From assembly GCF_000311785.1 (NCBI RefSeq), contig NZ_HE978546.1, forward strand, positions 62,001-126,000: DNA of 64,000 bases. Direction: 5' to 3'. The translations under genes were made by a program, and so were the position numbers. Shown in pieces: positions 21,138-38,263 of the stretch. Below the pieces are notes generated by a model, which ran no database searches, was not told the DNA's origin, and saw nothing but the letters and a program-made list of their open reading frames with translations. This DNA is from Brevibacillus massiliensis (lineage in GTDB: Bacteria > Bacillota > Bacilli > Brevibacillales > Brevibacillaceae). Position 1 is the first letter of the stretch. Every line of letters begins with the position of its first letter.

Positions 21138-21163
21138 CGTATCCTTCCTCACGTTTCTTGGAG

Positions 21164-22252: not shown

Positions 22253-22452
22253 GCTTCTCACCATTTTCTATGCAAGATTATGCAAAAATCCGTATATCGT
22301 ATTCGACATCATTCAATTTTATAGAGGATACTGAACAATGTCAACATTCGATTTCAGGCTTTTTATGTCTCCCTTATAGCGGCTATGGCCGCTACCCTCG
22401 GTCGATAAACGCGAACGAGAGGATGCTGCCGCCGGGCAAGCTGCATAAACGT

Positions 22453-22485
22453 CACAAAAACAGCCCACTCATCTCCTGAGTGGGC
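22453..22485 (-). terminator. Terminator of the gntR-dct-gab-glc operon
   Basis: A perfect 9-bp stem (GCCCACTCA at 22463-22471, TGAGTGGGC at 22477-22485) with a 5-base loop, followed on the minus strand by TGTTTTTG. It follows the stop of glcF. A second small hairpin, TAGCGGC/GCCGCTA, lies at 22377-22394. The gap 22253-22498 otherwise holds the promoter of the hcxA-like operon. Confidence 0.85.
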
Positions 22486-22498
22486 ATAAAAGCTTCCT

Positions 22499-23791
22499 TT
22501 ATGATGTCACAGCCAGACCGGCAGACTCTGCCAACAGTTCGACGAGATGGAGCGTTCGGACCTCGTGGGACAGCCCTTCGCGCTGCACCCCCAGCTTCAT
22601 CTGCAGCAGACAGCCCGGATTGGTCGTCACGATGACCGTCGCCTTCGTCGCTTTCATCGTTTCCATCTTCACGTCGAGGATTTCCATCGACTCTTCGTAA
22701 TTGACTACGTTATAGATGCCGGCCGACCCGCAGCACTGGCCCGGATTGGCCATTTCCCTGAACGTAATCCCCGGAATCCGCTTGATCAGATCCAGCGGCT
22801 CGCGCACGACCTTCTGCACGTTGGACATGTGACAGGAGCGCTGGTAGGTGACCACCTCGTCGATCGGGTGCTTCAAGGGCAGCTCGCACTGTGCCAGCAC
22901 CTGGCTGATATCACGGGTTTTCGCCACGAAGCGGCGAGCTCGCTCCTCCCATTCGGGGTCGCCGTGGAACAGGTGATGGTACTCGACCAGCAGAGCGCCG
23001 CAGCCCCCGGCGTTATTGACGATAAAATCGACATCCAGCTGCTCAAACGCCTCGATATTTTGTTTGGCCAGCAGCACCGTGTCGTCGCGTCGACCGGCGT
23101 GGGCGTGCAGCGCGCCGCAGCAGGTCTGCCCGCTGGCGACGTGTACTTCGCAGCCGGCCAAGGCCAAAAGCTCCATGGACAAGCGGTTGATTTTTTCAAA
23201 CATCGCATCCATGATGCAGCCGGTGAAAAAGGCCACTTTAAACCGCACGGCCGTGCCGGCAGGCGGCTGAAAAGCAGCGGGCCGCTTCCGCCGGGCTGCC
23301 GGCGAGCTCACTTCCGGCAGCACCTCTTCAAACGCGGAGAGGTTTTCCGGCAGGATTTTCGTCAGCCTGCCTTTCTGCGCCACCTTCTGCAAGCCTGAGG
23401 ACTGGTACAGCCAGATCAGGTCGGCAGCTGTGCGCAGCTTTTTGGGATCCGGAAAGACTTTTTGAAACATCACGTCCTGCATCCATTTCACCGGTTTGGA
23501 GGTGCTTTGTCCCTTGTGCTCGTGCAGCACCTCTCTCGCTTCCTCCAAAATTTTTCCGTACTGCACTCCCGACGGACAAGCAGGCTCACAGGCGCGGCAG
23601 CCCAGGCAGAGATCGAGCGGCTCCTGCAGTTCATCGAGCGAAATCTGCCCTTCTGCCGCCATTTTCACCAGGTTGATTCTCCCGCGGGGAGAGTGAGTCT
23701 CCTTGCCCATCGTCATGTAGGTCGGACAGGCGGGCAGGCAGTACCCGCACTGTACGCATTGGATCGTTTTATCGTAAGGCAGTTTTTTCAT
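22499..23791 (-). CDS. glcF: Glycolate oxidase iron-sulfur subunit GlcF
   Basis: A 430-residue electron-transfer subunit with two [4Fe-4S] ferredoxin motifs, CVQCGYCLPACP (near residue 12) and CLGCRACEPACPSG (near 64). Two CCG domains (CCGALHAHAG and CCGSAGIYN) follow in the C-terminal half. It forms a complex with the FAD subunit GlcD, six bases upstream, and passes electrons to the membrane quinone pool. The pair oxidises a 2-hydroxy acid (glycolate, D-lactate or similar) to the 2-oxo acid. A separate GlcE subunit is absent, as in many Bacillales GlcDF systems. Last gene of the large operon. Confidence 0.9.
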   Translation of the reverse strand: MKKLPYDKTIQCVQCGYCLPACPTYMTMGKETHSPRGRINLVKMAAEGQISLDELQEPLDLCLGCRACEPACPSGVQYGKILEEAREVLHEHKGQSTSKPVKWMQDVMFQKVFPDPKKLRTAADLIWLYQSSGLQKVAQKGRLTKILPENLSAFEEVLPEVSSPAARRKRPAAFQPPAGTAVRFKVAFFTGCIMDAMFEKINRLSMELLALAGCEVHVASGQTCCGALHAHAGRRDDTVLLAKQNIEAFEQLDVDFIVNNAGGCGALLVEYHHLFHGDPEWEERARRFVAKTRDISQVLAQCELPLKHPIDEVVTYQRSCHMSNVQKVVREPLDLIKRIPGITFREMANPGQCCGSAGIYNVVNYEESMEILDVKMETMKATKATVIVTTNPGCLLQMKLGVQREGLSHEVRTLHLVELLAESAGLAVTS

Positions 23792-23797
23792 GGCGCT

Positions 23798-25222
23798 CTA
23801 TCCTTCCGTCAAAACGAGCCGTTGGCCGGGCTTTGGAAAAATCTTGCCGGGATTCATAATGTTTTTCGGATCCAGACTCTCCTTGATCCGCTTCATCACG
23901 TCCAATCCGGCAGCGCCGAGCTCCATCTCCATAAACGGCGCTTTCATATTGCCGATGCCGTGTTCCCCGGAAAGGGTGCCGCCCAGCGCGATCGCTGCCT
24001 CAAAGATTTCCGCTACAGCCTTCTCGACACGCTTCATTTCTTCTTGATCACGTTTGTCGGCGATGATGTTGGGATGCAGATTGCCGTCCCCGGCATGGCC
24101 AAAGACGACGAGATTCACCTGGTACTTGTCGCGGATTTGCTTCAAGCGGGCGAACATCTCCGGAATCTTGCTCCGCGGAACCGTCGCATCCTCGGAGATT
24201 TTCGTCGGTTTCATCCGCACGATCGCCGGGGACACCATTTTCCGCGCCTTCCACAAGGCCTCCCGCTCTGCTTCCGTATTGGCAATCTCTACCCGGCTCG
24301 CTCCGATGCTTTCACAGATCCGCGCCGCTTCCTTGATCTCTTCTTCTACCGCACGAGGATGGCCGTCCACCTCGATCAGGATGATCGCCTCTGCCTCCAC
24401 AGGGAGTCCGCATGGCTGGTAGGCTTCTACCGCCTTGATGCAGGCTTGATCCATGATCTCCATCTTGGCCGGCAGAATTCCCGACGTCAGCACGCGCGAA
24501 ATCGCTTCCCCCGAGGTGACGATGTCGTCGAAGATCGCCATCAGCGTAGCCGTGGCGGGCGGCTTGGGGATGAGCTGCAGGATCGCCTCGGTGATAATCC
24601 CGAGCGTCCCCTCCGAACCGACGATCAGCTTGGTCAGATCGTAGCCGGTCACGTTTTTGACCGTCCGTCCTCCGGTGCGGATGACCTCCCCCTGGGGCGT
24701 AACCACCTCCAGGCCGAGCACGTAATCCTTGGTCACCCCGTACTTCAGCCCTCTGGGGCCGCCGGCGTTTTCCGCCAGGTTGCCGCCGATCGTGGCCACT
24801 GCCGAACTGCTCGGGTCAGGCGGATACATCAGCCCCACTTGCTCCGCCGCCTGGTGGATATTCGCCGTAAGCACACCGGGTGACACGATCGCGATCAGGT
24901 CGTCCGGGATGATCTCCAGCCGCTGGTTCATATGGGACATGTCGAGCGCGATCCCTCCCTCGACAGGGAGGGGGCCGCCCGACAGCGAAGTGGAACGTCC
25001 CCGCGGGTAGATCGGGATCGTCTCCTCGTAAGCCAGTTTGACGATGGCAGCCACCTCTGCCGTGGTTTTGGGCTGCACCACCAGCTCCGGAAAGTGCGTC
25101 CCGAAGGAAGCGTCAAAGGAGTAGCTGGCAAGGTCTGTCCGCTCCGTCAGGACCCGCTTGGCATCGGGGACGATCTCCCTGATCCTGCCCAGAATCTCTG
25201 CATCAACCTGTTTGTACTTCAC
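23798..25222 (-). CDS. glcD: FAD-linked 2-hydroxy-acid oxidase subunit GlcD
   Basis: A 474-residue FAD_binding_4 / FAD-oxidase_C protein. The PP-loop region has YPRGRSTSLSGGPLPVEGGI and the C-terminal half contains FGHAGDGNLHPNI and SGEHGIGNMK, both conserved in GlcD, D-lactate and D-2-hydroxyglutarate dehydrogenases. I take GTG 25222, which has GAAGGTGA five bases upstream; a GTG three codons earlier is the alternative. In this operon a D-2-hydroxyacid dehydrogenase and omega-amino acid enzymes are present, so D-2-hydroxyglutarate is as plausible a substrate as glycolate. Confidence 0.88.
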   Translation of the reverse strand: MKYKQVDAEILGRIREIVPDAKRVLTERTDLASYSFDASFGTHFPELVVQPKTTAEVAAIVKLAYEETIPIYPRGRSTSLSGGPLPVEGGIALDMSHMNQRLEIIPDDLIAIVSPGVLTANIHQAAEQVGLMYPPDPSSSAVATIGGNLAENAGGPRGLKYGVTKDYVLGLEVVTPQGEVIRTGGRTVKNVTGYDLTKLIVGSEGTLGIITEAILQLIPKPPATATLMAIFDDIVTSGEAISRVLTSGILPAKMEIMDQACIKAVEAYQPCGLPVEAEAIILIEVDGHPRAVEEEIKEAARICESIGASRVEIANTEAEREALWKARKMVSPAIVRMKPTKISEDATVPRSKIPEMFARLKQIRDKYQVNLVVFGHAGDGNLHPNIIADKRDQEEMKRVEKAVAEIFEAAIALGGTLSGEHGIGNMKAPFMEMELGAAGLDVMKRIKESLDPKNIMNPGKIFPKPGQRLVLTEG

Positions 25223-25243
25223 CGCATTCACCTTCGTTCAACC

Positions 25244-26677
25244 TTACATCTCTAACTGAAAGGACATGAATTTGTAATCCAGGTAATCCTCGATGCCGTA
25301 CTTGCCGCCCTCACGGCCCACACCCGACTCCTTGACTCCGCCAAACGGCGCCTGCGCGACCGTCGGAACCGGATCGTTGATGCCGACAATGCCGTAATCC
25401 AGCGCTTCGGCGACGCGGAACATGCGGGATCCGTCTTTGGTGAAGACGTAGGAAGCCAGGCCGTACACCGTATCGTTGGCGCGGCGGATCGCTTCTTCCT
25501 CTGTTTCAAATGTAAAAATCGGCGCGACCGGACCAAAGGTCTCTTCATAGGATATTTTCATCTCATGGGTAGCGTTCAACAGCACGGTCGGCTCGAAGAA
25601 GCAGCCATTGGCATACGCGCCCTGCTCCAGCTTGCTGCCGCCGCATACGACCTTCGCCCCCTTGCTGACGGCGTCGTCGATGTGCTCCTGGGCTTTCTCG
25701 ACAGCCTGGCGGTCGATCATCGGTCCGATGTTGACACCCTCCTCCAGGCCGTTGCCCACGACGAGCCGGCTTACTTTTTCCGCCATAATCGCAGCGAATT
25801 TCTCCGCTACCGATTTTTGCACATAGATGCGGTTCGTGCAGATGCAGGTTTGCCCCGCGTTGCGGAACTTGCTGGCGATCGCTCCCTCCGCCGCCTTCTC
25901 CAGGTCGGCATCTTCGAAGACGATAAACGGAGCGTGGCCGCCCAGCTCCATCGATACCTTTTTCATCGTATCGGCCGATTGGCGGACCAGTTCCTTGCCC
26001 ACCTCGGTAGAGCCGGTAAAGGTGATTTTCCGGACGACTGGGCTTGCCATCATCGCGCCGACCACTTCAGCAGCGGAGCCGTTCACCAGGTTGGCGACGC
26101 CTTTGGGCAGCCCGGCCTCGTGCAGCGCCTTGAACACTTCGATTGCGGCAAGCGGCGTGGCCGAAGCTGCCTTCAGGATGATCGTGCAGCCAGCCGCCAG
26201 CGCTGGCGCCAGTTTGCGGGTGATCATCGCAATCGGGAAGTTCCACGGCGTAATCGCTCCGACGACCCCTACGGGCTGGCGGGTGACGATGATCCGCTTG
26301 CTCGGCGAGGAGGCGGGAATCGTGTCGCCGTAGATGCGCTTTCCTTCCTCTGCGTACCAATCGAGGTAGTCGATGGCCAGGCCGATCTCGCCTTTGGACT
26401 CGGCCAGCGGTTTGCCCATCTCGCGGGTGATCAGGGCGGCGATCTCGTCCACTCTGCCGCGCAGGATGTCGGCGGTGTTTTTCAGGTACGTATAGCGCTC
26501 CTTGGCGGTCAGACGGGCCCAGGCAGGAAACGCGGCCTGGGCGGCGTCAATCGCGGCCTGGGTATCAGCCGCTCCTCCTTTGGCGACGGTCGCGATCGTC
26601 TCCCCCGTCGCCGGATTGGTCACCTCAAACGTCTTGCCGGACTGGGCCTGGCACCACTCTCCATTGATGTACAACAT
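25244..26677 (-). CDS. gabD: NAD(P)-dependent succinate/glutarate-semialdehyde dehydrogenase (GabD/DavD)
   Basis: A 477-residue aldehyde dehydrogenase with [29 protein letters not shown], the general-base Glu in MELGGHAPFIVFEDAD and the catalytic Cys in NAGQTCICTNRIYV, all typical of the succinate-semialdehyde class. Length is normal. ATG 26677 has an AAAGGAGGAG site, 17 bases after gabT. It oxidises the semialdehyde made by the upstream aminotransferase. In Pseudomonas the close relative DavD acts on glutarate semialdehyde; the two are hard to separate by sequence. Confidence 0.92.
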   Translation of the reverse strand: MLYINGEWCQAQSGKTFEVTNPATGETIATVAKGGAADTQAAIDAAQAAFPAWARLTAKERYTYLKNTADILRGRVDEIAALITREMGKPLAESKGEIGLAIDYLDWYAEEGKRIYGDTIPASSPSKRIIVTRQPVGVVGAITPWNFPIAMITRKLAPALAAGCTIILKAASATPLAAIEVFKALHEAGLPKGVANLVNGSAAEVVGAMMASPVVRKITFTGSTEVGKELVRQSADTMKKVSMELGGHAPFIVFEDADLEKAAEGAIASKFRNAGQTCICTNRIYVQKSVAEKFAAIMAEKVSRLVVGNGLEEGVNIGPMIDRQAVEKAQEHIDDAVSKGAKVVCGGSKLEQGAYANGCFFEPTVLLNATHEMKISYEETFGPVAPIFTFETEEEAIRRANDTVYGLASYVFTKDGSRMFRVAEALDYGIVGINDPVPTVAQAPFGGVKESGVGREGGKYGIEDYLDYKFMSFQLEM

Positions 26678-26694
26678 GCTTGTCTCCTCCTTTT

Positions 26695-27975
26695 TTAGGC
26701 TAATTCCGCGAGCGACGACTTGATGATGGTCATGGCTTCATCGATTTCCGCTTTCGTGACGGTCGTCGGCGGGATAAACCGGATCACGTTTTTATCCGTA
26801 CCGCAGGTGAGCAGAATCAGCCCTTTCTCCAGCGCTTTCTTCTGCAGGGCGCTGACAGTAGCGGCATCCGGCTTGCCGTCGGCGGCGATGAATTCCACCC
26901 CGATCATCAATCCCAGACCGCGGATGTCCTTGATAGTGGGAACATTCGCCTGAAGCTTCCGCAATTCCTCCATGAAGTACGCCCCCATGTTGACGGCATT
27001 TTCAAGCAGACCGCCTTCGAGCAGTTCGATCACAGCCAGCGAAGCCGCACAAGCAACCGGATTGCCGCCGTAGGTGCCGCCGTGCGTACCGGCTGTCCAC
27101 TGATCCATCAGGTCGGCGCGGGCCACCAGTGCACTCAGCGGGAAGCCGTTGGCGATCCCTTTTGCCAGCGACAGGATATCCGGCTTCACATCAAAGTGCT
27201 GCCAGGCAAACATTTTCCCGGTGCGTCCGAAGCCGGTTTGAATTTCGTCGAAGATCAGCAGGATGCCGTGCTGGTCGCAGATGCGGCGAATTTCTTCGAC
27301 GAACGCTTTTGGCGGCACGATGTATCCGCCTTCGCCCTGGACCGGTTCCATAATGATCGCGGCGACCTGGTCAGGAGCGATCAGGAAGCGGAAGATTTCC
27401 TCCAGGGAGTGCAGGCAGCGCTTGACCTCTTCTTCCTCAGACAGGCCCGTGCGCAGGGCATAGGGGTATTCCGCGTAGTAGACGCTTGGCAAAAGCCCTT
27501 CGTAATCTTTGCGATACAGCGAGTTGGAAGCCGTCAGCGTCGTGGTGGCCAGCGTGCGTCCGTGGAAGCTGCGCTTGAACGAGATGATGCCGGGACGCTT
27601 GGTCACTTTTTTCGCCATTTTGATGGCCCCTTCATTTACCTCTGCGCCGCTGTTGGAAAAGTACACCTTGCAGTTGCCGCCGTTCAGCTCGCTTAGTTTT
27701 TCGGCCAGCTCGACGTAGACCGGGTAGTACACGACGTTGTGACCGCCGTGGATCAGCGCGTCCATCTGCGCCTTGGCCCGCTCCACGACCAGCGGATGAT
27801 TGTGTCCGACGTTCGTCACGGCTACGCCGCTGGCAAAGTCCAGGTATTTCTTGCCGTCTTCGCCCCACAGGTAGGAGCCTTCTCCCTTGACGACACCAAG
27901 CGTGGTCGCTCTCGACGCTACCGGAGGCATTACGGCGTTGGCCCGTTCGAATAAAGATTTGGTTTGTGCTGTCAT
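26695..27975 (-). CDS. gabT: 4-aminobutyrate / 5-aminovalerate aminotransferase (GabT/DavT)
   Basis: A 426-residue class III aminotransferase. It has YLDFASGVAVTNVGHNHPLV, the FSNSGAEVNEGAIKMA cofactor loop, LIFDEIQTGFGRTGKMFA and the PLP Lys in DILSLAKGIANGFPLSALVA. ATG 27975 has GGGAGAGG with good spacing; an in-frame start 13 codons upstream lacks a site. It moves the omega-amino group of GABA or 5-aminovalerate to 2-oxoglutarate. The linked CoA-transferase and glutaryl-CoA-dehydrogenase-like genes across the divergent promoter make 5-aminovalerate worth testing. Confidence 0.9.
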   Translation of the reverse strand: MTAQTKSLFERANAVMPPVASRATTLGVVKGEGSYLWGEDGKKYLDFASGVAVTNVGHNHPLVVERAKAQMDALIHGGHNVVYYPVYVELAEKLSELNGGNCKVYFSNSGAEVNEGAIKMAKKVTKRPGIISFKRSFHGRTLATTTLTASNSLYRKDYEGLLPSVYYAEYPYALRTGLSEEEEVKRCLHSLEEIFRFLIAPDQVAAIIMEPVQGEGGYIVPPKAFVEEIRRICDQHGILLIFDEIQTGFGRTGKMFAWQHFDVKPDILSLAKGIANGFPLSALVARADLMDQWTAGTHGGTYGGNPVACAASLAVIELLEGGLLENAVNMGAYFMEELRKLQANVPTIKDIRGLGLMIGVEFIAADGKPDAATVSALQKKALEKGLILLTCGTDKNVIRFIPPTTVTKAEIDEAMTIIKSSLAELA

Positions 27976-28026
27976 GGTTACCTCTCCCTTGAAAATTTTT
28001 ATATATGTGTCCATGCTTCCGGCGGT

Positions 28027-29682
28027 TTACGGCTTCAGCCAGCTGCCCGCCATGTCCCGGATCATCCGCGGCACCGTCTCAAACGAATACGGTTTGTAGA
28101 CCCGCTCCGTCCAGCGGTGGGCATCCAGTCCGAATACCCCGACATTGATCGCGGGCACATTCAATTCCCTGATTTTTTTCACCGGCACCGGATAGATTTT
28201 GTCCCACTCCGGGAAGTTGTCGATGAGCGAAGCCACTTCTTCATCGGTATCGTGCAAAGACAGGTAACTGCTGTCCGTCAGGTACGGGAAGAAGCGTTTG
28301 ACTGCAAAGATCTCACCGGTCTTGCCTTCCCACCGGGCGATGACATCGGAAATGACGCGAAGCACTTCCTCGTCTCTGGCGCTGTCCCCTTTCAGGTAGT
28401 TGTGGGGGCAGTACGGCGGGGCAAAGAATATCACGATGGACGGTTTGCCGCTGTGATCCAGCTTCCGCAGCGTATCGACAATCTCGAAGCAGAGCTCGCG
28501 AAGCTCCATCCCCTGATGCTCTGCCACGGCCCGGGCTGTAACGGCCTTGACGTCAACGCCCTGTTTGCCGAGCTTCTGGCAATACTCCTCGTAGGTGTAC
28601 ACCTCCATCTCCCAGTCCGGTCCCTCCTCCGGAAAGGCATTGACCCGGGCAAAGGTGCGGTATTGTTCCTCGTAGTAGTTTCTGATATTTTCCGCAGCAG
28701 CGGTTGCGACCTTTTTCAGCTTGCTCATGACCTCTTTCGGAGAAGCCTCCAGGACCATCAGGTTAAAGTAGAGATGGCTTGTCACCGCTGTCTGCACGTT
28801 GTAAAACGCCTTGGTATCCCGCTGGTACAAGGCGGATGGGGGCGTCATCATCTCCCCCTCCACCTGCTCCGCAAGCTCCATGTTGTTGTTGATCAGCCTG
28901 TTGAGCTCAGAGGTGACGAGTGTCGGATCCAGCCCGAACAGCGTCTGCCCCACGTGCGTTTCTCTGCCGTAGACGTAAAAGCACGGCAGCAGCTTGCCGC
29001 CTGCCCCGGTGTAGATGTACTTCTTGGGATCTCCCGGGTAGAGCGGAGAAATGTAGTCATTGTTGATCGCCACGACGTACTCCAGCTGCTCTTCCTTCCG
29101 CAGACGCAGGAGTTCGTCCACAGAGGCAATCACGCCTGTATGCTGATTTTCCTCAACCGGGTTGGCCATAAAGATGATCTCGCCGTCCCATTCGTCGCAG
29201 TGTTCGCTGAAGTACAGGACGTTGGCCAGATGGACGGCGACCCCGCTCTTCATGTCGACGGCGCCGCGGCCAAACATCCAGTCGCCGGATAAAGCGTGCT
29301 CCCGGACCTCCTTATTCCCATCCCACTGTTGAAAAAAGCGCAGCAGTTCCTCAGGATCATTGGCGATGCCCTCCTGCTGGCCAAAATCTTCGATCCCGAC
29401 CGTATCGATATGGCTGTGGAAAATCACTGTCTTCTTTGCATTTCCTCTGCCTTTTACCCGGGCAAACACGTTTTTCCGGCCCAACTGGTCGCCCGGCAGG
29501 AACTGCGTCCAGACGCGATCCGGATGTTTTTGAAAGTAAGGAAAGGTTCGCAAAATGGCTTCAACTTTATCGGCGATCTCTACTTCACCGCTCGTGCCGT
29601 TGATACTCAGTGTCTGAACCAGAGCAGTCGTCAGCTTCTCCACCTGTTCAAACAATGAGCAGTCCTTTATTTCGAGATACAC
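28027..29682 (-). CDS. rocB: RocB-like M20-family peptidase/deacylase
   Basis: A 551-residue zinc hydrolase of the M20 family, close in length and layout to B. subtilis RocB, an arginine-utilisation protein of unclear reaction. Metal-site pattern: VIFHSHIDTV (His, Asp), GRGAVDMKSG (Asp), MANPVEENQ (Glu pair). It ends DMAGSWLKP. GTG 29682 has an AGGAGG site. In this operon it may hydrolyse an amide or acyl bond to release an amino acid for GabT. A role in arginine use is less obvious here because rocD, rocF and rocA are absent. Confidence 0.85.
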   Translation of the reverse strand: MYLEIKDCSLFEQVEKLTTALVQTLSINGTSGEVEIADKVEAILRTFPYFQKHPDRVWTQFLPGDQLGRKNVFARVKGRGNAKKTVIFHSHIDTVGIEDFGQQEGIANDPEELLRFFQQWDGNKEVREHALSGDWMFGRGAVDMKSGVAVHLANVLYFSEHCDEWDGEIIFMANPVEENQHTGVIASVDELLRLRKEEQLEYVVAINNDYISPLYPGDPKKYIYTGAGGKLLPCFYVYGRETHVGQTLFGLDPTLVTSELNRLINNNMELAEQVEGEMMTPPSALYQRDTKAFYNVQTAVTSHLYFNLMVLEASPKEVMSKLKKVATAAAENIRNYYEEQYRTFARVNAFPEEGPDWEMEVYTYEEYCQKLGKQGVDVKAVTARAVAEHQGMELRELCFEIVDTLRKLDHSGKPSIVIFFAPPYCPHNYLKGDSARDEEVLRVISDVIARWEGKTGEIFAVKRFFPYLTDSSYLSLHDTDEEVASLIDNFPEWDKIYPVPVKKIRELNVPAINVGVFGLDAHRWTERVYKPYSFETVPRMIRDMAGSWLKP

Positions 29683-29710
29683 TGTATTGCCTCCTGACTG
29701 TAATTGTTGT

Positions 29711-30658
29711 CTAGTATCCTCTCAGCGTCTCTACCACGTTTTTCATCGGCTTATCTTTTCGGTACGAAAGCAAATTCTCGATAAAGATCTCGACACAGCG
29801 ATCGACGTAATAGATCGACTTGGCCGACATGTGCGGCGTCAGGATCAGATTGTCGCATTCCCAAAGCGGACTTGATTCGGGGAGCGGCTCCTGCTGAAAT
29901 ACGTCAAAGGCCGCTCCTTTCAACCTGCCCGTGGCGAGCATTTCCGCCACGTAATGTTCATCTACGACGTCTCCGCGGCCGATGCTGATAAACACGGCGT
30001 CCGGTTTGAGCAGATCCAGGCGTTCCGGCGAAAAAAGGCCGCTGGTCAGCGGAGTAGACGGCAGAATCGAGATGACATAATCTGCCGTTTGCAGCCTGTC
30101 CAGCTCATCGCCGATGCGGAAGGTCTGCAGAAACGGCTCGACCGGCCTGCCGCTCGTATTGACGCCGTAAACCTTCGTCTCAAACACGCTGAGAGAACGG
30201 GCGACTGCCTGGCCGATGACGCCTGTTCCGTAAATCAGCACCTCGCGTCCCGGCAGCTCGCCTACCAGCTTTGTCCGGTCGTACACTTTTTGCCGTTTTA
30301 GCGCGTTGTAGCGATGCATGTCTTTCTCAAAGTGGAGCATGCACATGATCACGTATTCGCTCATCGGCCTGACGTGGATTCCTGCCGCATTGGTCAGGCG
30401 AATCTGCCTTTCGTGCAGATCTTGAAGCGGCAGATCCTCCAAACCGGCGCTAAACAGTTGAATCCACTTCACATTTTCAAACAGCCGAATATTGTCGCAC
30501 GTCAAATCGTTTCCATAGGTAAGCAAAATTTCCGTTTGTTTCGCTATTTCTTGGGGTATCTCTTCAATGCTTGCAAAAACTGCTGGCTCTTCTCCGGTCT
30601 TTTCGACAATCTCTTGTACGTGTCTTGGCAAAAGTTCATCTGTAGTCGAGACAATCAT
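29711..30658 (-). CDS. D-isomer-specific 2-hydroxyacid dehydrogenase (NAD-binding)
   Basis: A 315-residue D-2-hydroxyacid dehydrogenase. The Rossmann motif is YGTGVIGQAVA; catalytic residues are the Arg in SIGRGDVVDE, the Glu in DVFQQEPLPE and the His in ILTPHMSA. ATG 30658 has AGGAGGA. It should interconvert a 2-oxo acid and a D-2-hydroxy acid. Together with GlcDF, which oxidises 2-hydroxy acids to the quinone pool, it could form a 2-oxo/2-hydroxy shuttle within the same operon. Confidence 0.88.
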   Translation of the reverse strand: MIVSTTDELLPRHVQEIVEKTGEEPAVFASIEEIPQEIAKQTEILLTYGNDLTCDNIRLFENVKWIQLFSAGLEDLPLQDLHERQIRLTNAAGIHVRPMSEYVIMCMLHFEKDMHRYNALKRQKVYDRTKLVGELPGREVLIYGTGVIGQAVARSLSVFETKVYGVNTSGRPVEPFLQTFRIGDELDRLQTADYVISILPSTPLTSGLFSPERLDLLKPDAVFISIGRGDVVDEHYVAEMLATGRLKGAAFDVFQQEPLPESSPLWECDNLILTPHMSAKSIYYVDRCVEIFIENLLSYRKDKPMKNVVETLRGY

Positions 30659-30668
30659 TGCTATCCTC

Positions 30669-31955
30669 CTATTGTTGCAGGATTGAAGGCAGCCAGGTGG
30701 ACATTGCCGGGATGTATGTGATCACCAACAGGGTGAAAATCATCATGAACAGGAACGGCATAATCGCCATAACAATTTTTTCCAGCTGCGTTCTGCTCAC
30801 GCTGGAGGCAACAAACAAGTTGACGCCAAGCGGCGGAGTAATGAAGCCGATCGCCAGGTTTGCCACCAAAATGACGCCAAAGTGCACCGGGTCGACCCCT
30901 ACTTTGGTCACGATCGGCAGCAGGATCGGGGCCAGTACGACCAGGGCCGAGATCGTATCGATAAACATCCCGACGATTAACAGGAAGATGTTGATTACCA
31001 GCAGGATGACGTATTTGCTGTCGGACAGCGAAGTGATGAAATCGGCGATCGCTTGCGGAATCTGCTCCAGTGTCATGATGTAGGCAAACGATATCGACAG
31101 CCCGATGATGATCATCGTGGAGGCGTTGATCACGACGGATTCGACGATGCTATCGTAGATGTCTTTCCAGGTCAGCTCGCGGTGCACAAACACCCCGATG
31201 ATAATCGCGTAGACAACAGCGACGACCGCCGCTTCGGTCGGGGAGAAAATCCCGCCGTAGATCCCCCCGAGAATGATCACGGGGATCATCAGCGCCCATT
31301 TGGAGTCGTAAATGGCTCTGAGAACGCGCATAAATGTAACCTTTTCCGTGGAAGCCGCTACGTAGTTGCGCTTCTTGGCGATCGCATAGGAGACGATCAT
31401 CAGGCCGATCCCGATGACGATCCCCGGGATGACCCCTGCGAGGAACATGCTGCCGACGGATACACCGGCGACGACCCCGTAGAGGACGAACGGAATGCTC
31501 GGCGGAATGATGACGCCAATCGAACCGGCCGCGGCCGTCAATGCCGCCGCAAATCCGGAGCCGTAGTTCTTCCCACGCATTTCCGGGATCATAAACGACC
31601 CAATCGCAGCTACTGTAGCCGGACCCGAACCGGAGATGGCTGCAAAGAACATGCAGGAGACGACCGTCACCATCGCCAGCCCGCCGACCATCCATCCGAC
31701 GAGCACCGTGGCGAGATCAAGCAGGCGTTTGGAGACGCCGCCTTTTCCCATCAGGATGCCGGCCAGCATGAAGAACGGGATGGCCATGAGCGGAAAAGAG
31801 TCAAGCGAGGTGAACGCTTTTTGCGTGATGATGCCCAAAGGCAGGTCAGTCGTAAAGAAAATCGTTATCAGCGCGGCCAGCCCAAGGGCGATGGCAACCG
31901 GAATATTCAAGATAATGAACAGGAACAGACTTCCGAATAATGTAAGAACGGTCAC
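30669..31955 (-). CDS. dctM: TRAP transporter large permease DctM
   Basis: A 428-residue protein with about 12 helices, typical DctM/SiaM. It has FFMLAGILMGKGGVSKRLLD, AAISGSGPATVAAIGSFMIP and the late GFITPPLGVNLFVASS motif. GTG 31955 has AAAGGGGG. It is the sodium-coupled transport subunit that works with the small DctQ and the DctP receptor. Confidence 0.93.
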   Translation of the reverse strand: MTVLTLFGSLFLFIILNIPVAIALGLAALITIFFTTDLPLGIITQKAFTSLDSFPLMAIPFFMLAGILMGKGGVSKRLLDLATVLVGWMVGGLAMVTVVSCMFFAAISGSGPATVAAIGSFMIPEMRGKNYGSGFAAALTAAAGSIGVIIPPSIPFVLYGVVAGVSVGSMFLAGVIPGIVIGIGLMIVSYAIAKKRNYVAASTEKVTFMRVLRAIYDSKWALMIPVIILGGIYGGIFSPTEAAVVAVVYAIIIGVFVHRELTWKDIYDSIVESVVINASTMIIIGLSISFAYIMTLEQIPQAIADFITSLSDSKYVILLVINIFLLIVGMFIDTISALVVLAPILLPIVTKVGVDPVHFGVILVANLAIGFITPPLGVNLFVASSVSRTQLEKIVMAIMPFLFMMIFTLLVITYIPAMSTWLPSILQQ

Positions 31956-31983
31956 GTTTTGGTTCCCCCTTTCCCATCAAACG

Positions 31984-32460
31984 CTATTGTTTTTCTGGTT
32001 TAAACAAGAAATACAATTGTTGTATCAGCCTGATCGACATCAGCAATCCGCCTAGCGGAATGGCAGAATAGACCAACCACATCGGAAGCTGCATTGCGGG
32101 GGAACTCTGACCTTTTGACAAGATCGTCGTCACCAGGCTTGTACCGGCAACCGCCAGGAAAACAGCAAGACAAAACCAGAGGATAATGGCAATAAAATCG
32201 ATACATTTTCTACCTGTTTCGTTAAACAGATTTTTAAACGCTTCTACCTTGATGTGTTCGCGCTTGCGAACGGCAAAACTGGCTCCGATCCAGATCTGCC
32301 AAATGTGAATGTACCTCGCCAATTCTTCTGACCAGGATAAAGAGGATTCGAAGACATAACGACAGAGGACCTGCGCAAAAATCAGCACGACCATGGCGAC
32401 CATCGTCAAAACGAGAAAAACTTCTTCCAGCCTTTCGTCCAGCAGCTTTTTGAGTGACAC
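31984..32460 (-). CDS. dctQ: TRAP transporter small permease DctQ
   Basis: A 158-residue protein with four helices. It contains SSLSWSEELARYIHIWQIWI and GASFAVRKREHIKVEAF, the standard DctQ motifs. GTG 32460 has AAAGGAAGTG upstream. Alternatives are a GTG three codons earlier and a far upstream ATG that would run through the stem-loop at 32497-32539. Confidence 0.9.
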   Translation of the reverse strand: MSLKKLLDERLEEVFLVLTMVAMVVLIFAQVLCRYVFESSLSWSEELARYIHIWQIWIGASFAVRKREHIKVEAFKNLFNETGRKCIDFIAIILWFCLAVFLAVAGTSLVTTILSKGQSSPAMQLPMWLVYSAIPLGGLLMSIRLIQQLYFLFKPEKQ

Positions 32461-32496
32461 GCGTTTCACTTCCTTTTCCCAGTCAGTAGAAAATCG

Positions 32497-32539
32497 ATTC
32501 CTTATGTCCTGCCCATCAATCTGGCAGAACATAAGGAAT
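32497..32539 (-). promoter_or_regulatory. Intercistronic stem-loop between dctP and dctQ
   Basis: ATTCCTTATGT (32497-32507) pairs perfectly with ACATAAGGAAT (32529-32539), and an inner TGCC/GGCA adds four pairs. There is no T-run in either direction. It probably stabilises the dctP message so that the receptor is made in excess over the permease. The role is inferred. Confidence 0.65.
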
Positions 32540-32555
32540 GGCTGTAATTATGCTA

Positions 32556-33596
32556 CTATTCGTTCGCTTTTCTGGCAGCGTCGATCAAGTCTTGGCCAAT
32601 ATCGCCGGCAAATTGATCGTATACGCTCTTGGACGCTTCAATGAACGCATCCTTCTGCTCTGACGTCAGTTCGTTGACCTGCATGCCTGCTTCTTTCAGC
32701 TTGCCAAGGAACTCATCGTCTTGCTGGGTGGCCAATTGTCTTTGGTAATCGCGGTACTCCACGCTCGCGTCGTCGATGACCTTTTTCAGATCGTCCGGAA
32801 GCGAATTGTACCAGTCGAGGTTTGCCAGCAGAGCCGTTGCCTGGTAAACGTGTCCGCTCAAGGTCAGATACTTTTGCACCTCGTAGAACTTGTTGGTGTA
32901 GTAGAGCGAGATCGGGCACTCCATGGCGTCATACACCTTTTGCTGGAGAGCAGTGTAGAGCTCGCCAAAAGCGAATGGCGATGCGTTTGCGCCAAATGCG
33001 TTAAAGGCAGCGGTGTGAACCGGGCTTTCCAGCGTTCTGAATTTTTGCCCTTTCAGATCGGCTGGGGAGTTGATCGGCCCTTTGTTGTTGGACATGTGGC
33101 GGAAGCCGTTTTCGGCAAAGACCAGTCCTTTGAAACCGTTTTTCTCCAAACCTGTCAGGAGCTGCTTTCCTACGTCGCCGTCAAGCGCTTTGTACGCGGC
33201 TTCTTTTGTCTTGAACAAAAACGGCAAATCCAGCACCATGAACTGCTTGTTGAAGCCGGCGAGCGGAGCGACCGCAGGAATGGTCATCTCGACGTTTCCG
33301 AGCTGGACAGCCTCAATCGCCTCGCGGTCGGAAGGGAACAGCGAACCGTTCGGATACAGCTGGACCTTGATTCTTCCTTGGGATTTTTCTTCGACCGTCT
33401 CTTTAAACTTTACCGCTGCAATATGTGTGGATTGCTCTTCCGGAACGAGATAGGCAATCCGCAGCGTGTACTCTTTTCCGTCTGATTTGCCTGCATCTGC
33501 ACCCGAGGATGCCCCTGCCTCCGTGCCGCCCTTGCCGCCGCAGGCGGTGACCAGCATCATCGTGGCAGCGCACAAGATCGCTAACAACTTTTTCAT
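32556..33596 (-). CDS. dctP: TRAP transporter substrate-binding lipoprotein DctP
   Basis: A 346-residue extracellular receptor. The signal peptide ends in a lipobox-like VTACGG. It has LRIAYLVPEEQSTHIAAVKF, KSQGRIKVQLYPNGSLFPSD and GLVFAENGFRHMSNNKGPI, the usual DctP elements, including the conserved Arg of the FRTLESPVH segment that binds the carboxylate. The ATG overlaps the TGA of the upstream GntR gene. The ligand should carry a carboxylate; its identity is unknown. Confidence 0.92.
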   Translation of the reverse strand: MKKLLAILCAATMMLVTACGGKGGTEAGASSGADAGKSDGKEYTLRIAYLVPEEQSTHIAAVKFKETVEEKSQGRIKVQLYPNGSLFPSDREAIEAVQLGNVEMTIPAVAPLAGFNKQFMVLDLPFLFKTKEAAYKALDGDVGKQLLTGLEKNGFKGLVFAENGFRHMSNNKGPINSPADLKGQKFRTLESPVHTAAFNAFGANASPFAFGELYTALQQKVYDAMECPISLYYTNKFYEVQKYLTLSGHVYQATALLANLDWYNSLPDDLKKVIDDASVEYRDYQRQLATQQDDEFLGKLKEAGMQVNELTSEQKDAFIEASKSVYDQFAGDIGQDLIDAARKANE

Positions 33597-34261
33597 GGAT
33601 GACTCCCCCCTGAACCTTGTTTTGTTCTGATTTCGACGTTCCTTATGTGTTTTCTCATTGCTGCACCTGCCAAGCTGACGTCGCGGTCTTGAAGGGCCTT
33701 GACGATCTCGTGGTGTTCTAGCAGCGCCTTGTCAGCACTGTTTTCCAGAGTGCCGGACAGGATGAGGTACCGGTGAAGATGGTTGTTGATCTGCTCAATA
33801 AAGTCCTTCAATTTTGCGTTTTGCGTCATTTCGGCGATCATGACGTGAAACTGGGCATCCAGTTCGATATAGGCGTAAAAGTCCTTGCTTTCAATCGCCA
33901 CCTTTTGTGCCTCTGCATTCTGTTTCAGCGCATCGATAAATTCAGCGGTGACAAAAGGCACGGCTTGCTCTGCTGAGAAACCTTCAAGCAGTTCTCGCAG
34001 CCTGAGAAAATTCTCCATATCTTGGGATGTAAAACTCGCTACTCTGGCGATCTTCCCGGTCTCAAGTTCTACCAATCCCTCATAGGCCAGTCGAGTAACC
34101 GCTTTGCGCAGCGGCGTTCGACTAATGCCGAGCATGGAAGCGATAGATTCTTCCGGCAGCAAGTCCCCAGGCAAGAACTGACTCTGCAGGATCGCCTTTT
34201 TTATCTCTTTATACGCTCGGTCTGCCAATGTCTCAGGCTGGGCCAGCTTTTTAAGCATCAT
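33593..34261 (-). CDS. GntR-family (FadR/FCD type) regulator of the TRAP/gab/glc operon
   Basis: A 222-residue regulator. The winged helix contains LLPEESIASMLGISRTPLRK and AVTRLAYEGLVELET; the FCD domain includes YIELDAQFHVMIAEM. It is the first gene of the operon and its TGA overlaps the dctP ATG, so it is autoregulated with the transport genes. Two adjacent ATGs (34261 and 34258) follow a GAGGGGGG site. The palindromic repeats at 34279-34310, just upstream, are the probable operator; the divergent CoA-transferase unit is also likely under its control. Confidence 0.9.
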   Translation of the reverse strand: MMLKKLAQPETLADRAYKEIKKAILQSQFLPGDLLPEESIASMLGISRTPLRKAVTRLAYEGLVELETGKIARVASFTSQDMENFLRLRELLEGFSAEQAVPFVTAEFIDALKQNAEAQKVAIESKDFYAYIELDAQFHVMIAEMTQNAKLKDFIEQINNHLHRYLILSGTLENSADKALLEHHEIVKALQDRDVSLAGAAMRKHIRNVEIRTKQGSGGSHP

Positions 34262-34278
34262 ATCCCCCCTCTCTTTTT

Positions 34279-34310
34279 CCTGTATACAGGATACTAGGTA
34301 CTGTATACTA
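34279..34310. promoter_or_regulatory. Candidate GntR operator (paired GTATAC repeats)
   Basis: CCTGTATACAGG at 34279-34290 is a perfect 12-bp palindrome. A second, slightly degenerate copy with TACTGTATACTA lies at 34299-34310, so the centres are 20 bases apart. It lies 18-49 bases upstream of the GntR start, overlapping the expected promoter on the minus strand. Confidence 0.65.
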
Positions 34311-34437
34311 CTAGAGTATAAGAAACAGTCAGATAAATGTAAAGAAAAAAAACAGCTTGTTTTTTCACTAAAAATAGTTTTATCGAAATGTTCTTCTTTG
34401 GCGAAAAGCGTCCTTGAGAAACAGCCTTCACTCCCTA

Positions 34438-34469
34438 TTGACAACCTTTTTTGAATAATGAAATAATAT
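34438..34469 (+). promoter_or_regulatory. Candidate sigma-A promoter for the CoA-transferase unit
   Basis: TTGACA at 34438-34443 is followed after 18 bases by AATAAT (34462-34467), with TAATAT overlapping. The leader of about 200 bases to the GTG at 34677 includes a hairpin CAGAGAG/CTCTCTG (34484-34508). The whole gap 34262-34676 holds this promoter, the GntR operator and no other gene that I can see. Confidence 0.55.
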
Positions 34470-34676
34470 AGGTGGTTCACGGACAGAGAGCCGCACAAAA
34501 CCTCTCTGCCACTCTGAACCCGCTTTTCTCGACAGCTTGATACTGATACTGCCTTCACTTCGTCTGATCTTCTTACCGGAAGACATTCCACGAACGAAAG
34601 CCAGTTGAACTGCAATGATTTTTTGTGGTTTGGCTGGCTTCTTTATGTTCACGGGCAAAAAAGGAGGGAGAATATT

Positions 34677-35864
34677 GTGACCGGTGCTTTGCAGGGCATC
34701 ACGATCCTGGATGTATCGAGGGTGCTGGCTGGGCCTTTCTGCACGATGATTTTGGCTGATCTGGGGGCGGAAGTCATCAAAGTGGAAAGCACTGCGGCAA
34801 AGGATGACACCCGCGCATGGGGGCCTCCGTTTGCAGGAGGCGAAAGTGCCTACTACCTCTGCGCAAACCGGAACAAACGGGCCATCACGCTCAATCTGAA
34901 GTCGGGCAAGGGAAAAGAGGTTTTTAAAAAACTGGCCGCCGGTGCCGACGTCGTCGTGCAGAACTTCAAGACGGGCACTCTGGATAAGCTGGGGCTGGGA
35001 TATGATGTGCTCCGTGAACGCAATCCCCGGATCATCCTCGCCTCGATCACGGGCTTTGGCTTGAGCGGCCCTTACAAGGACGAACCGGGATACGACTACA
35101 TCGTCCAGGCGATGAGCGGGCTCATGAGCATCACCGGCGATCAGCAGTCCGGCCCGCTGAAAGTCGGGGTGGCCATCGCCGACGTCCTGACCGGTCTGTA
35201 CACGGCAATCGGAATTTTGGCCGCCCTGCACGAACGCGACCGCTCCGGCGAGGGGCAGCAAATCGACATCTCCTTGTTTGACTCCCAGATTTCCGCGCTG
35301 GTCAACGTCGCCAGCAATTACCTCGTCTCCGGCAGCATCCCGCAGCGGTTGGGCAACCAGCATCCCAACATCGTGCCCTATCAAGTCTTCCCCACGCTGG
35401 ACCGGGAGATGGTGGTGGCCGTCGGAAACGACAAGCAGTTTGAAAAATTCGCGGCAGCGCTGGGATTGCCCGAATTGGCCGCGGACGAAAAATTCGCCAC
35501 CAACCCGAGCCGCCTGACACACAAGGAAGAGCTTCTGGATATCATCTGCCAGGCGATGCGGACCAGACCGGCAAGCGAATGGCAGCAGCGGTTCAAAGAG
35601 GCCGGCATCCCCAACGGGCCGATCAACGACCTCGAAGCCGTATTTGCCGACCCGCAGGTGCACGCCCGCGAGATGGTGCGCGAAATGGCCCATCCTACCG
35701 CCGGCACGATCAGGTTGGTCGGAAGCCCGCTCAAGCTGTCCAGAACCCCGGTGGACATGAGGCGGCATCCGCCGCTCTACGGAGAGCACACCGAGGAGAT
35801 TTTGTCTGAGATGGGTTACTCCAGGCAAGAAATCGAAGCGATGAAACAAGAAAAAGCGATATAA
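34677..35864 (+). CDS. Class III CoA-transferase (CaiB/BaiF family)
   Basis: A 395-residue family III CoA-transferase: ILDVSRVLAGPFCTMILADL, GAEVIKVES, then the catalytic Asp region EPGYDYIVQAMSGLMSITGD. The C-terminus has SRTPVDMRRHPPLYGEHTEE. GTG 34677 follows AAGGAGGGAG with eight bases of spacing; an upstream in-frame ATG has no site. It should move CoA from a donor thioester to a carboxylic acid. Human SUGCT, which activates glutarate, belongs to this family. With the acyl-CoA dehydrogenase that follows, it could activate the dicarboxylate produced by the gab genes. Confidence 0.9.
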   Translation: MTGALQGITILDVSRVLAGPFCTMILADLGAEVIKVESTAAKDDTRAWGPPFAGGESAYYLCANRNKRAITLNLKSGKGKEVFKKLAAGADVVVQNFKTGTLDKLGLGYDVLRERNPRIILASITGFGLSGPYKDEPGYDYIVQAMSGLMSITGDQQSGPLKVGVAIADVLTGLYTAIGILAALHERDRSGEGQQIDISLFDSQISALVNVASNYLVSGSIPQRLGNQHPNIVPYQVFPTLDREMVVAVGNDKQFEKFAAALGLPELAADEKFATNPSRLTHKEELLDIICQAMRTRPASEWQQRFKEAGIPNGPINDLEAVFADPQVHAREMVREMAHPTAGTIRLVGSPLKLSRTPVDMRRHPPLYGEHTEEILSEMGYSRQEIEAMKQEKAI

Positions 35865-35879
35865 GGGAGGAATGTTCCA

Positions 35880-37076
35880 ATGATGAATTTTGCTCTGACG
35901 GAAGAACAAGAAGCCGTCCGGAAGATGGTCCGCACCTTCGTAGACCGGGAAATCAATCCGCATATTCAAGAGTGGGACGCCAAAGGCCACTTTGAAACGT
36001 CGATTTTAAAACGGCTGGCCGAGCTGGACCTGATGGGCGTATGCATTCCGGAAAAGTACGGCGGCTCCGGCATGGACTACAATACGCTGGCCATCGTCTG
36101 CGAAGAGCTGGAGAGGGGCGATACGGCGTTTCGCACAGCGGTGTCCGTTCATACCGGATTGAACAGCATGACGATCCTGCAGTGGGGAGACGAATTTCAA
36201 AAGGAAAAGTACCTGGTTCCCCAGGCGCGCGGGCAAAAAGTGGCCGCTTTTGGCTTGACCGAGCCGAACGCCGGTTCCGATGTGGCCGCCATGCAGACAA
36301 CAGCCAGGCGCGAAGGCAGCGAATACATTCTGAACGGCTCCAAGACTTGGATCTCCCTGTGCGACGTGGCCGACAACTTCCTGATCTTTGCCAAAACAGA
36401 CAAAGAGAAGGGGCATCACGGCATTAGCTGCTTTATCGTGGAGCGCACTTTCCCCGGCGTTACGACCAAAGCGATCAAGGGCAAGCTGGGGATCCGCGCC
36501 GGAAACACCGGCGAGGTCTTTCTCGAAGACGTCCGTGTACCGGCAGAAAATCGGCTGGGCGAAGAGGGCGAAGGTTTTAAAATCGCCATGTCGGCGCTGG
36601 ACAACGGCCGATTCACCGTCGGCGCGGGCGCTTGCGGCCTGATCAACGCCAGCCTGGAGGCGAGCCTGAAGTACTGCCACGAGCGGAAGACATTTGGCAA
36701 GGAGATCGGCAAACACCAATTGGTTCAGCAGATGATCGCCAAAATGACGGCCAATCTGGAGATCTCCCGACTGCTGGTCTACCGGGCCGGATGGCTGAAA
36801 AATCAGGGCAAGCGCAACACCAGGGAAACCTCTCTGGCGAAGTGGTACGCCTGTGATGCCGCCTTCGAAGCGGCCAATGACGCCGTCCAAATCCACGGCG
36901 CGTACGGCTACTCCAACGAGTACCCGGTCGAACGCTTCCTGCGCAACGCCAAGGCGCCGGTCATCTACGAGGGCACCCGGGAGATCCACACGATCATGCA
37001 AGGAGAATACGCTCTCGGCTATCGGGTGGATAAACCGCTGCGCAAGATGCTGCCCGCCTGGCCGTTTGAAGAGTGA
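35880..37076 (+). CDS. Acyl-CoA dehydrogenase, glutaryl-CoA dehydrogenase-like
   Basis: A 398-residue FAD acyl-CoA dehydrogenase. It has the AFGLTEPNAGSDVAAM signature, the TWISL flavin contact and IHGAYGYSNEYPVERFLRNA. The catalytic Glu is in YEGTREIH (about residue 364). Arg 85 in FRTAVSVHTG aligns by eye with the arginine that holds the free carboxylate in glutaryl-CoA dehydrogenases (RSAMSVQ-type). This hints at a dicarboxylyl-CoA substrate, but many uncharacterised relatives share it. ATG 35880 has GGGAGG with nine bases of spacing and lies 15 bases after the CoA-transferase gene. It needs an electron-transfer flavoprotein, not encoded here. Confidence 0.88.
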   Translation: MMNFALTEEQEAVRKMVRTFVDREINPHIQEWDAKGHFETSILKRLAELDLMGVCIPEKYGGSGMDYNTLAIVCEELERGDTAFRTAVSVHTGLNSMTILQWGDEFQKEKYLVPQARGQKVAAFGLTEPNAGSDVAAMQTTARREGSEYILNGSKTWISLCDVADNFLIFAKTDKEKGHHGISCFIVERTFPGVTTKAIKGKLGIRAGNTGEVFLEDVRVPAENRLGEEGEGFKIAMSALDNGRFTVGAGACGLINASLEASLKYCHERKTFGKEIGKHQLVQQMIAKMTANLEISRLLVYRAGWLKNQGKRNTRETSLAKWYACDAAFEAANDAVQIHGAYGYSNEYPVERFLRNAKAPVIYEGTREIHTIMQGEYALGYRVDKPLRKMLPAWPFEE

Positions 37077-37149
37077 ACATTTTGAATTGACGTATCAGCC
37101 GTTCTTCGATATATTCTTGTCAACAGACCATGGCAGGGGGGATTGCGCG

Positions 37150-37479
37150 ATGGCGTCTCTCAATACGTATTTCATCGCCGGCCACGCCAGGCTTCCTCAG
37201 GGAATGGCGGCGAAAAGCATCTTTGACTCCCTGACGATCACGGTTGAAGTTGACAAGAAATACGGCGTTATTGTCGATGCTTCATGCACGTTGGCGACGG
37301 AACACGGCCGGGATTTCGTCGGAAGGATCCTGAAGGGGTTCTGCCTGCAAGACGGGGTGGATGAACTGATTGGACATCTGCAGGTGCATTACCGCGGAAA
37401 GGCGGCGAACGCCCTGACCGCGGCGCTGAAGGATTTGCACCAGCAGTACGAACAGCTTCATGTGGCGAAAGCGAAATGA
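37150..37479 (+). CDS. DUF3870 domain protein
   Basis: A 109-residue soluble protein, MASLNTYFIAGHARLPQGMA, with the family-like centre VDKKYGVIVDASCTLATEHG, and RILKGFCLQDG. It has no catalytic signature I recognise. ATG 37150 follows GGGGGGAT; longer in-frame readings overlap the acyl-CoA dehydrogenase. It is the third gene of the CoA-transferase/acyl-CoA dehydrogenase unit (73-base gap), before a strong terminator. DUF3870 genes are, as I recall, often found near CoA-dependent catabolic genes in Firmicutes, but no function is known. Confidence 0.8.
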   Translation: MASLNTYFIAGHARLPQGMAAKSIFDSLTITVEVDKKYGVIVDASCTLATEHGRDFVGRILKGFCLQDGVDELIGHLQVHYRGKAANALTAALKDLHQQYEQLHVAKAK

Positions 37480-37923: not shown

Positions 37924-37956
37924 CTGTTCCCACCTCCATTGCGCAATAAACTGTAT

Positions 37957-38214: not shown

Positions 38215-38237
38215 TTCCCAACACCTCTCTTGTGTGA

Positions 38238-38263
38238 CCATACCTGTATACGTATATTATACC
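38238..38263 (-). promoter_or_regulatory. Promoter/operator of the cstR-rhodanese operon
   Basis: On the minus strand a TATAAT box (38256-38261) overlaps a dyad centred on TATACGTATA, flanked by GGTAT and AGGTAT half-sites. The layout, a dyad over the -10 box, fits self-repression by CstR. The -35 box is weak. Confidence 0.55.

Follow-up and report, generated by a model that had tools for sequence, protein, structure and literature searches.

We analysed a 64,000-nucleotide stretch of the Brevibacillus massiliensis genome (RefSeq assembly GCF_000311785.1, contig NZ_HE978546.1, positions 62,001 to 126,000 of the forward strand), referred to here as the window, in which a ten-gene minus-strand operon stands back to back with a short plus-strand unit. 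The best explanation that we can offer, and one that we hold tentatively, is that these are two independent catabolic modules. The first (22499-34262, minus strand) would be a GntR-controlled route for the catabolism of a C5 omega-ureido acid that has no alpha-amino group, and the second (34677-37479, plus strand) a separate glutarate-type unit, in which CoA transfer would be followed by glutaryl-CoA-type dehydrogenation. Judged from its gene families and their context, the operon is probably an undescribed omega-ureido-acid catabolic type assembled from known families. A sequence-only reading of the same DNA had proposed one pathway running through both units by way of 5-aminovalerate and glutarate. 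All the genes that it named are open, full-length and where it had placed them, apart from corrections to the start of the CoA-transferase (CaiB) and to the coordinates of the DUF3870 gene.

Organisation of the two units

The genes of the two units are as follows, in order of transcription.

33593-34262, minus: GntR/FCD transcriptional regulator, first gene of the operon (Pfam GntR and FCD)
32556-33596, minus: DctP, solute-binding lipoprotein of a tripartite ATP-independent periplasmic (TRAP) transporter, 56-65% identical to DctP of G035, G149, G400 and G312
31984-32532, minus: DctQ, TRAP small membrane subunit, kept alongside DctM and DctP in G149 and G400
30669-31955, minus: DctM, TRAP large membrane subunit, 70% identical in G035 and about 60% in G149 and G400
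29711-30658, minus: NAD-dependent D-2-hydroxyacid dehydrogenase (D2HDH; Pfam 2-Hacid_dh), 66% identical in G035 and 43% in Siminovitchia
28027-29682, minus: RocB-class M20 metallohydrolase, proposed ureido (N-carbamoyl) amidohydrolase (identity to RocB, M20 fold model)
26695-28014, minus: class III omega-aminotransferase, GabT-like (Pfam Aminotran_3)
25244-26677, minus: semialdehyde dehydrogenase, GabD-like, 78% identical in G035
23798-25231, minus: GlcD-like FAD D-2-hydroxyacid oxidase subunit (Pfam; best solved relatives glycolate oxidase and D-lactate dehydrogenase)
22499-23791, minus: GlcF-like iron-sulfur subunit (Pfam Fer4 and two CCG domains)
34677-35864, plus: CaiB, class III CoA-transferase, SUGCT-like (best solved match human SUGCT)
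35880-37076, plus: acyl-CoA dehydrogenase (ACAD) with a glutaryl-CoA dehydrogenase (GCDH)-type Arg85, Tyr and catalytic Glu (YEGTREIH), from alignment to GCDH
37150-37479, plus: DUF3870 protein (Pfam PF12986)

The minus-strand genes run in the order GntR, DctP, DctQ, DctM, D2HDH, RocB, GabT, GabD, GlcD, GlcF, from the GntR ATG at about 34262 to the GlcF stop at 22499, with successive gaps of -4, 23, 28, 10, 28, 12, 17, 12 and 6 nt. Since these gaps are short, a hairpin follows GlcF and the next minus-strand gene has a separate promoter match, the ten genes are most likely a single transcription unit. The TRAP transporter was recognised from three adjoining genes, from an order matching that in G149 and G400, and from solved relatives of DctP, which include 4p47 and 4p9k/4pak. 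We presume the ligands of the latter pair to be D-erythronate and (R)-pantoate; a search for a paper on these ligands found none. D2HDH carries the GRGxxVDE motif, the E and the H of its family.

Separability of the two units

In G035, which belongs to another genus of the same family, DctP, DctM, D2HDH, RocB, GabT and GabD follow the window's order at 56-78% identity, and where DctQ is expected there is a reading frame of 160 residues; no GlcDF match was found within the stretch read, and the genome gave no close match to CaiB or ACAD. G149 and G400 carry GntR-DctPQM-RocB-GabT with an aldehyde:ferredoxin oxidoreductase (AOR) in the place of GabD, and a close ACAD was not found in either. Conversely, CaiB-ACAD occurs without the operon in G026, G032 and G033, among others, and ACAD without CaiB in G037. 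In a sample of 398 genomes RocB (E<=1e-125) was present in 14 and ACAD (E<=1e-130) in 9, and among 39 genomes of the family the counts were 2 and 5; the overlap in both sets was the window's genome only. The comparison of gene neighbourhoods, which the sequence-only reading had itself proposed as a check, joined the two units only in this genome, and nowhere else in the genomes compared were the aminotransferase and dehydrogenase genes linked to CoA-transferase or ACAD genes.

The regulatory matches around the divergent gap are listed below.

34280-34289: candidate GntR operator CTGTATACAG, a palindrome with a GTATAC core
34301-34308: second candidate operator CTGTATAC, a GTATAC-type site
34315-34343, minus: sigma-70-like match for the operon promoter, TTTACA-17-TATACT (consensus scan, 10/12)
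34438-34467, plus: sigma-70-like match for the CaiB promoter, TTGACA-18-AATAAT (consensus scan, 11/12)
22463-22485, minus: intrinsic terminator-like hairpin of 9 pairs downstream of GlcF, closing the operon

The two GTATAC sites that precede the GntR operon lie at 34282 and 34303. TRAP operons of G149, G400, G059, G312 and Bhargavaea have a relative of this GntR (35-44% identity) as first gene or as neighbour; TGTATACA-like sites precede the transporter genes in G400, G059 and G312, and one lies in the divergent gap between the TRAP and aminotransferase-RocB genes of Bhargavaea. The 281 nt upstream of CaiB contained no GTATAC operator match, and CaiB of four other genomes was likewise not preceded by one. 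Because either unit occurs without the other and no copy of the operon's operator motif was found there, the proposal that the divergent units form one pathway is unsupported. The candidate sites are 130-160 nt from the CaiB promoter match and may still link CaiB to the same GntR.

RocB and its replacement

RocB of the window is 49-51% identical to RocB encoded beside rocA/rocC or rocG-like genes, and falls with RocB of rocABC-type loci in a 24-row clade (SH-aLRT 100). Copies linked to GabT are scattered within this clade and form no single branch, so the tree alone defines no substrate group. The di-zinc M20 ligands H91, D93, D143, E177 and E178 (HxD, D, EE) are invariant in 14 sequences, and structure prediction gave a confidently modelled M20 fold (mean pLDDT 86), which leaves ureido and acyl substrates undistinguished. 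An enzymatic or biochemical role for RocB was not found in the papers searched. It is from genome context that we propose RocB to be a ureido (N-carbamoyl) amidohydrolase. In agreement with carbamoyl removal, RocB of Sporolactobacillus, Trichococcus and Sporosarcina has as a direct or close neighbour a gene of the arginine deiminase (ADI)/dimethylarginine dimethylaminohydrolase (DDAH) family, the members of which act on guanidino groups.

The G059 locus (L188) bears most directly on this proposal. Under a related GntR it reads permease, ornithine-transcarbamylase family protein, carbamate kinase, ADI-like protein, LarA-like racemase, D2HDH, GabT and AOR, and RocB was not found within the stretch read. 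The transcarbamylase scores 383.9 against TIGR00658 (cut-off 280.85) and the carbamate kinase 414.8 (cut-off 358.25), while the 282-residue protein was called ADI-like from its motifs and from 26-32% identity to the Sporolactobacillus, Trichococcus and Sporosarcina ADI/DDAH-family proteins. Since this transcarbamylase-carbamate kinase pair stands before a GabT with 65-69% identity to the G149 and G400 enzymes, carbamoyl cleavage appears to replace RocB, and these loci are read most simply if RocB and the pair serve one function, the removal of a carbamoyl group, ahead of the same aminotransferase.

In ornithine transcarbamylases D231, S235 and M236 of the DxxxSMG motif, together with N167, bind ornithine (PMC4581275). 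The motif reads NTYHSMG in the G059 enzyme (L188:4613-5629), where all four solved enzymes aligned have the Asp; SMG, HCLP, STRTR and an Asn of the other ornithine contact are kept. This suggests a substrate of the length of ornithine with no positively charged alpha-amino group.

Other contexts of RocB were also seen. Its neighbourhood in the Sporosarcina loci L048 and L057 includes TRAP genes, a DDAH-like protein with FVED and HLKT motifs, an aminotransferase-A-like gene and a D-2-hydroxyacid dehydrogenase, and in L057 an Ldh_1 gene as well; these loci could be a route for keto or hydroxy acids of methylated arginine. In L049, L054 and L069 (Rossellomorea, Jeotgalibacillus) the neighbour of RocB is a permease of the xanthine/uracil type, as checked for L049 and L069, and this context differs from both the rocABC and the TRAP ones. 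Plasmid records held only distant relatives (GabT 48% and RocB 36% identical at best), and the single neighbourhood read there was uninformative.

Aminotransferase, semialdehyde dehydrogenase and hydroxyacid enzymes

GabT scores 441.7 against the GABA (4-aminobutyrate) transaminase equivalog TIGR00700 and fails its cut-off of 506.65, and GabD is just under that of succinate-semialdehyde dehydrogenase (TIGR01780; 645.6, cut-off 646.35). G035 has, a few kb from the locus, another transaminase that passes TIGR00700 with 624.6 and whose pocket-lining motifs are unlike those of the RocB-linked GabTs. Six GabT relatives of 55-78% identity each stand beside RocB or ADI-ornithine transcarbamylase-carbamate kinase genes; relatives of at least 58% identity occur in only four of the 398 sampled genomes, namely the window's, G149 and G400 (with RocB) and G059. 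AOR takes the place of GabD in G059 also.

D-2-hydroxyacid dehydrogenases recur in these loci (G035, Siminovitchia, G059), together with LarA in G059 and GlcDF in the window, and an L-lactate/malate-dehydrogenase-type gene is found in one Sporosarcina locus. An alpha-hydroxy C5 substrate would employ all of these recurring enzymes. Near the RocB and TRAP genes of Bhargavaea, Sporosarcina and G312 there is a class I aminotransferase, and in these loci a 2-oxo analogue could instead be aminated to citrulline ahead of the RocB step.

The CaiB/ACAD unit

The most likely start of CaiB is the GTG at 34677, preceded by AAGGAGG, and not 34605 as given before. Among NCBIfam models, CaiB matches succinate-glutarate CoA-transferase best, with a score of 438.6 that lies below the cut-off of 750, and its nearest solved structure is human SUGCT, the succinate-hydroxymethylglutarate CoA-transferase. 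ACAD aligns with the solved glutaryl-CoA dehydrogenase 3mpi, and the NCBIfam model GlutCoADH_Des is its best or near-best family at 370.3, below the cut-off of 470. The GCDH-like arginine noted from sequence alone was borne out: Arg85 aligns to human GCDH Arg94, is kept by 13/13 orthologues (59-93% identity) and is lacking from all 12 further acyl-CoA dehydrogenases that were identified in the window's genome. In GCDH Arg94, together with Tyr369, contacts the terminal carboxylate of glutaryl-CoA (PMC3169403). With SUGCT as the best solved match and the GCDH Arg, Tyr and Glu present, the earlier assignment of CaiB and ACAD holds up, and they are probably responsible for glutarate CoA transfer and then glutaryl-CoA-type dehydrogenation.

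Two ACAD orthologues (L177 in G319 and L180 in G129) adjoin a gene for the alpha subunit of a 2-oxoacid:acceptor oxidoreductase, which would suit a 2-oxoadipate-to-glutaryl-CoA step; in G129 a PrdR-like sigma-54 regulator gene flanks ACAD on its other side. DUF3870 adjoins ACAD in G306 and CaiB/ACAD in G207. Four DUF3870 copies are held by the window's genome (C6, C8, C12), and across the phylum 48 of 348 sampled genomes have the family, with mixed neighbours.

Proposed pathway

Based on these observations, we infer that the TRAP transporter would take up an arginine-like acid with a ureido group at its far end and an alpha-carbon without an amino group, most likely bearing a hydroxyl. The likeliest import substrate would be 2-hydroxy-5-ureidovalerate, the hydroxy analogue of citrulline. 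RocB would cleave the ureido group to give CO2, ammonia and 5-amino-2-hydroxyvalerate, GabT would convert the omega-amine of the latter to an aldehyde, and GabD (AOR elsewhere) would oxidise this to 2-hydroxyglutarate, which GlcD/GlcF and/or D2HDH could take to 2-oxoglutarate. Retaining the alcohol until the amine is removed would avoid the cyclisation of 5-amino-2-oxovalerate. Amide release, transamination, aldehyde oxidation and a possible role for 2-hydroxyglutarate survive in outline from the sequence-only reading, and 5-aminovalerate as the specific intermediate does not: GabT is below and GabD just below the GABA-type cut-offs, and the neighbours indicate that a ureido group is taken off a skeleton like that of arginine.

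Several observations weigh against this pathway. D2HDH does not adjoin the operon in G149 and G400, GlcDF occurs only in the window's copy, and the D2HDH of G059 is just 25% identical to that of the window. The Asp-to-Asn change of the transcarbamylase is known from one genome and would equally suit a 2-deoxy substrate, and the lost aspartate may be catalytic. The window's operon has no ADI gene. The nearest folds of the RocB model, DapE, ArgE and carboxypeptidase G2, are deacylases, and an M20 ureidohydrolase is absent among the listed fold-search matches.

Alternative explanations and known systems

If RocB released GABA from a 4-ureido-, 4-guanidino- or 4-acetamidobutyrate-type compound, GabT and GabD would carry it to succinate. 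GABA transaminase and succinate-semialdehyde dehydrogenase are indeed the nearest families of the two enzymes, and at a Lachnospiraceae locus an iron alcohol dehydrogenase adjoins RocB-GabT, as in 4-hydroxybutyrate routes. This would, however, leave the hydroxyacid enzymes unexplained, and GabT falls below a cut-off which the nearby G035 transaminase, with its different pocket-lining motifs, passes; the transcarbamylase of G059 also retains the C5-type SMG loop. We regard this explanation as unlikely, though worth keeping in mind. Less likely again is the pathway of the sequence-only reading, or a ureido/guanidino version of it, by which RocB would convert 5-ureidovalerate (or an amide) to 5-aminovalerate, GabT/GabD this to glutarate, CaiB glutarate to glutaryl-CoA and ACAD the latter to crotonyl-CoA. 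It would make use of both divergent neighbours, including the SUGCT-like CaiB and the GCDH residues of ACAD, and its 2-deoxy C5 substrate is compatible with the altered transcarbamylase. It is opposed by the core operons of G035, G149 and G400, which lack CaiB/ACAD, by the converse arrangement in G026, G032, G033 and others and by the missing operator match before CaiB, and it has no use for D2HDH, GlcDF and LarA.

A citrulline/ornithine operon, with RocB as citrullinase, GabT as ornithine delta-aminotransferase and GabD as glutamate-semialdehyde dehydrogenase, seems improbable to us. GabT has a Val where ornithine aminotransferases have a Tyr, which we take to be their Tyr85; the ornithine-contact Asp is lost from the G059 transcarbamylase, uptake of citrulline by a TRAP carrier would be unusual, and the hydroxyacid enzymes would again be idle. 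RocB of this subfamily is nevertheless found in rocABC-type loci, and RocR of B. subtilis responds to citrulline (PMC9245794). The deacylase-like folds nearest to RocB would suit an N-acyl hydrolase splitting an amide of a D-2-hydroxyacid and an omega-amino acid (pantothenate- or hopantenate-like), whose acid half would go to GlcDF/D2HDH and amine half to GabT/GabD. So would the D-erythronate and (R)-pantoate presumed for 4p9k/4pak, which are close relatives of DctP. The ADI/DDAH neighbours and the transcarbamylase-carbamate kinase replacement would then go unexplained, and we consider this very improbable.

The module pair that we favour shares features with several described systems. Like Pseudomonas DavTD with GcdG/GcdH, the window has a class III aminotransferase, a semialdehyde dehydrogenase, a class III CoA-transferase and a glutaryl-CoA-type dehydrogenase. 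It differs in that the operon has an M20 hydrolase and no DavB/DavA-type genes, the transporter is another one, the halves are separable and co-regulation is not indicated; no lysine 2-monooxygenase or 5-aminovaleramidase is among the genes of the two units, the rest of the genome not having been searched. RocB of the window is 49-51% identical to RocB beside RocA and RocC homologues and falls in one 24-member clade with it, as a point in common with Bacillus rocABC, in which the context is 1-pyrroline-5-carboxylate dehydrogenase and an amino acid permease instead of TRAP, GabT, GabD and hydroxyacid enzymes. Guanidino/ureido chemistry is common to the ADI-ornithine transcarbamylase-carbamate kinase pathway, a set of which stands in RocB's place in G059, and to the citrullinase CtlX. 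The G059 transcarbamylase differs from that pathway in lacking the ornithine-contact Asp, and the window's operon has no ADI or CtlX-type gene. CtlX has FPNN/HTN motifs (PMC9007349); R/D and HLD motifs are retained instead in the ADI-like proteins from Sporolactobacillus, Trichococcus and G059. GABA catabolism uses the same families, also from adjoining genes, and differs in the GabT and GabD scores and in the AOR found for GabD in G149, G400 and G059. In the literature we found nothing direct on the combination of TRAP, glutarate and 5-aminovalerate, or on TRAP with ureido compounds or 2-hydroxyglutarate.

Neighbouring genes

Downstream of the operon, a unit at 18985-22264 (minus strand) encodes a glycerol-dehydrogenase-like iron alcohol dehydrogenase, a HisC-like aminotransferase and an SsuA-like solute-binding protein. 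These genes were considered as operon members and ruled out by the terminator-like hairpin and by their own sigma-70-like promoter match (22344-22316). Beyond DUF3870, a rhodanese-like protein and a small CsoR-like regulator were read from the sequence at 37537-38241 (minus strand).

Biological implications

By name RocB belongs to the Bacillus arginine operon, and its recurring neighbours raise a specific question: is it a ureidohydrolase? It is possible, though doubtful, that the loci compared here belong to a scattered, undescribed pathway of the Bacillota that acts on arginine and citrulline analogues of the alpha-hydroxy (or alpha-oxo) kind. In it RocB ureidohydrolases would be interchangeable with ADI, a variant transcarbamylase and carbamate kinase, and a dedicated omega-aminotransferase with GabD or AOR would lead to 2-hydroxyglutarate and 2-oxoglutarate. 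Argininic acid has been reported as a metabolite in many studies. For the window itself, the analysis sets a likely glutarate unit apart from an unrelated neighbouring operon. If the proposed pathway is true, bacteria would possess a dedicated route for the uptake and degradation of hydroxy and keto analogues of arginine and citrulline, hydrolytic and ATP-yielding versions of one step would swap between lineages, and a function would be assigned to the RocB of the classic rocABC operon.

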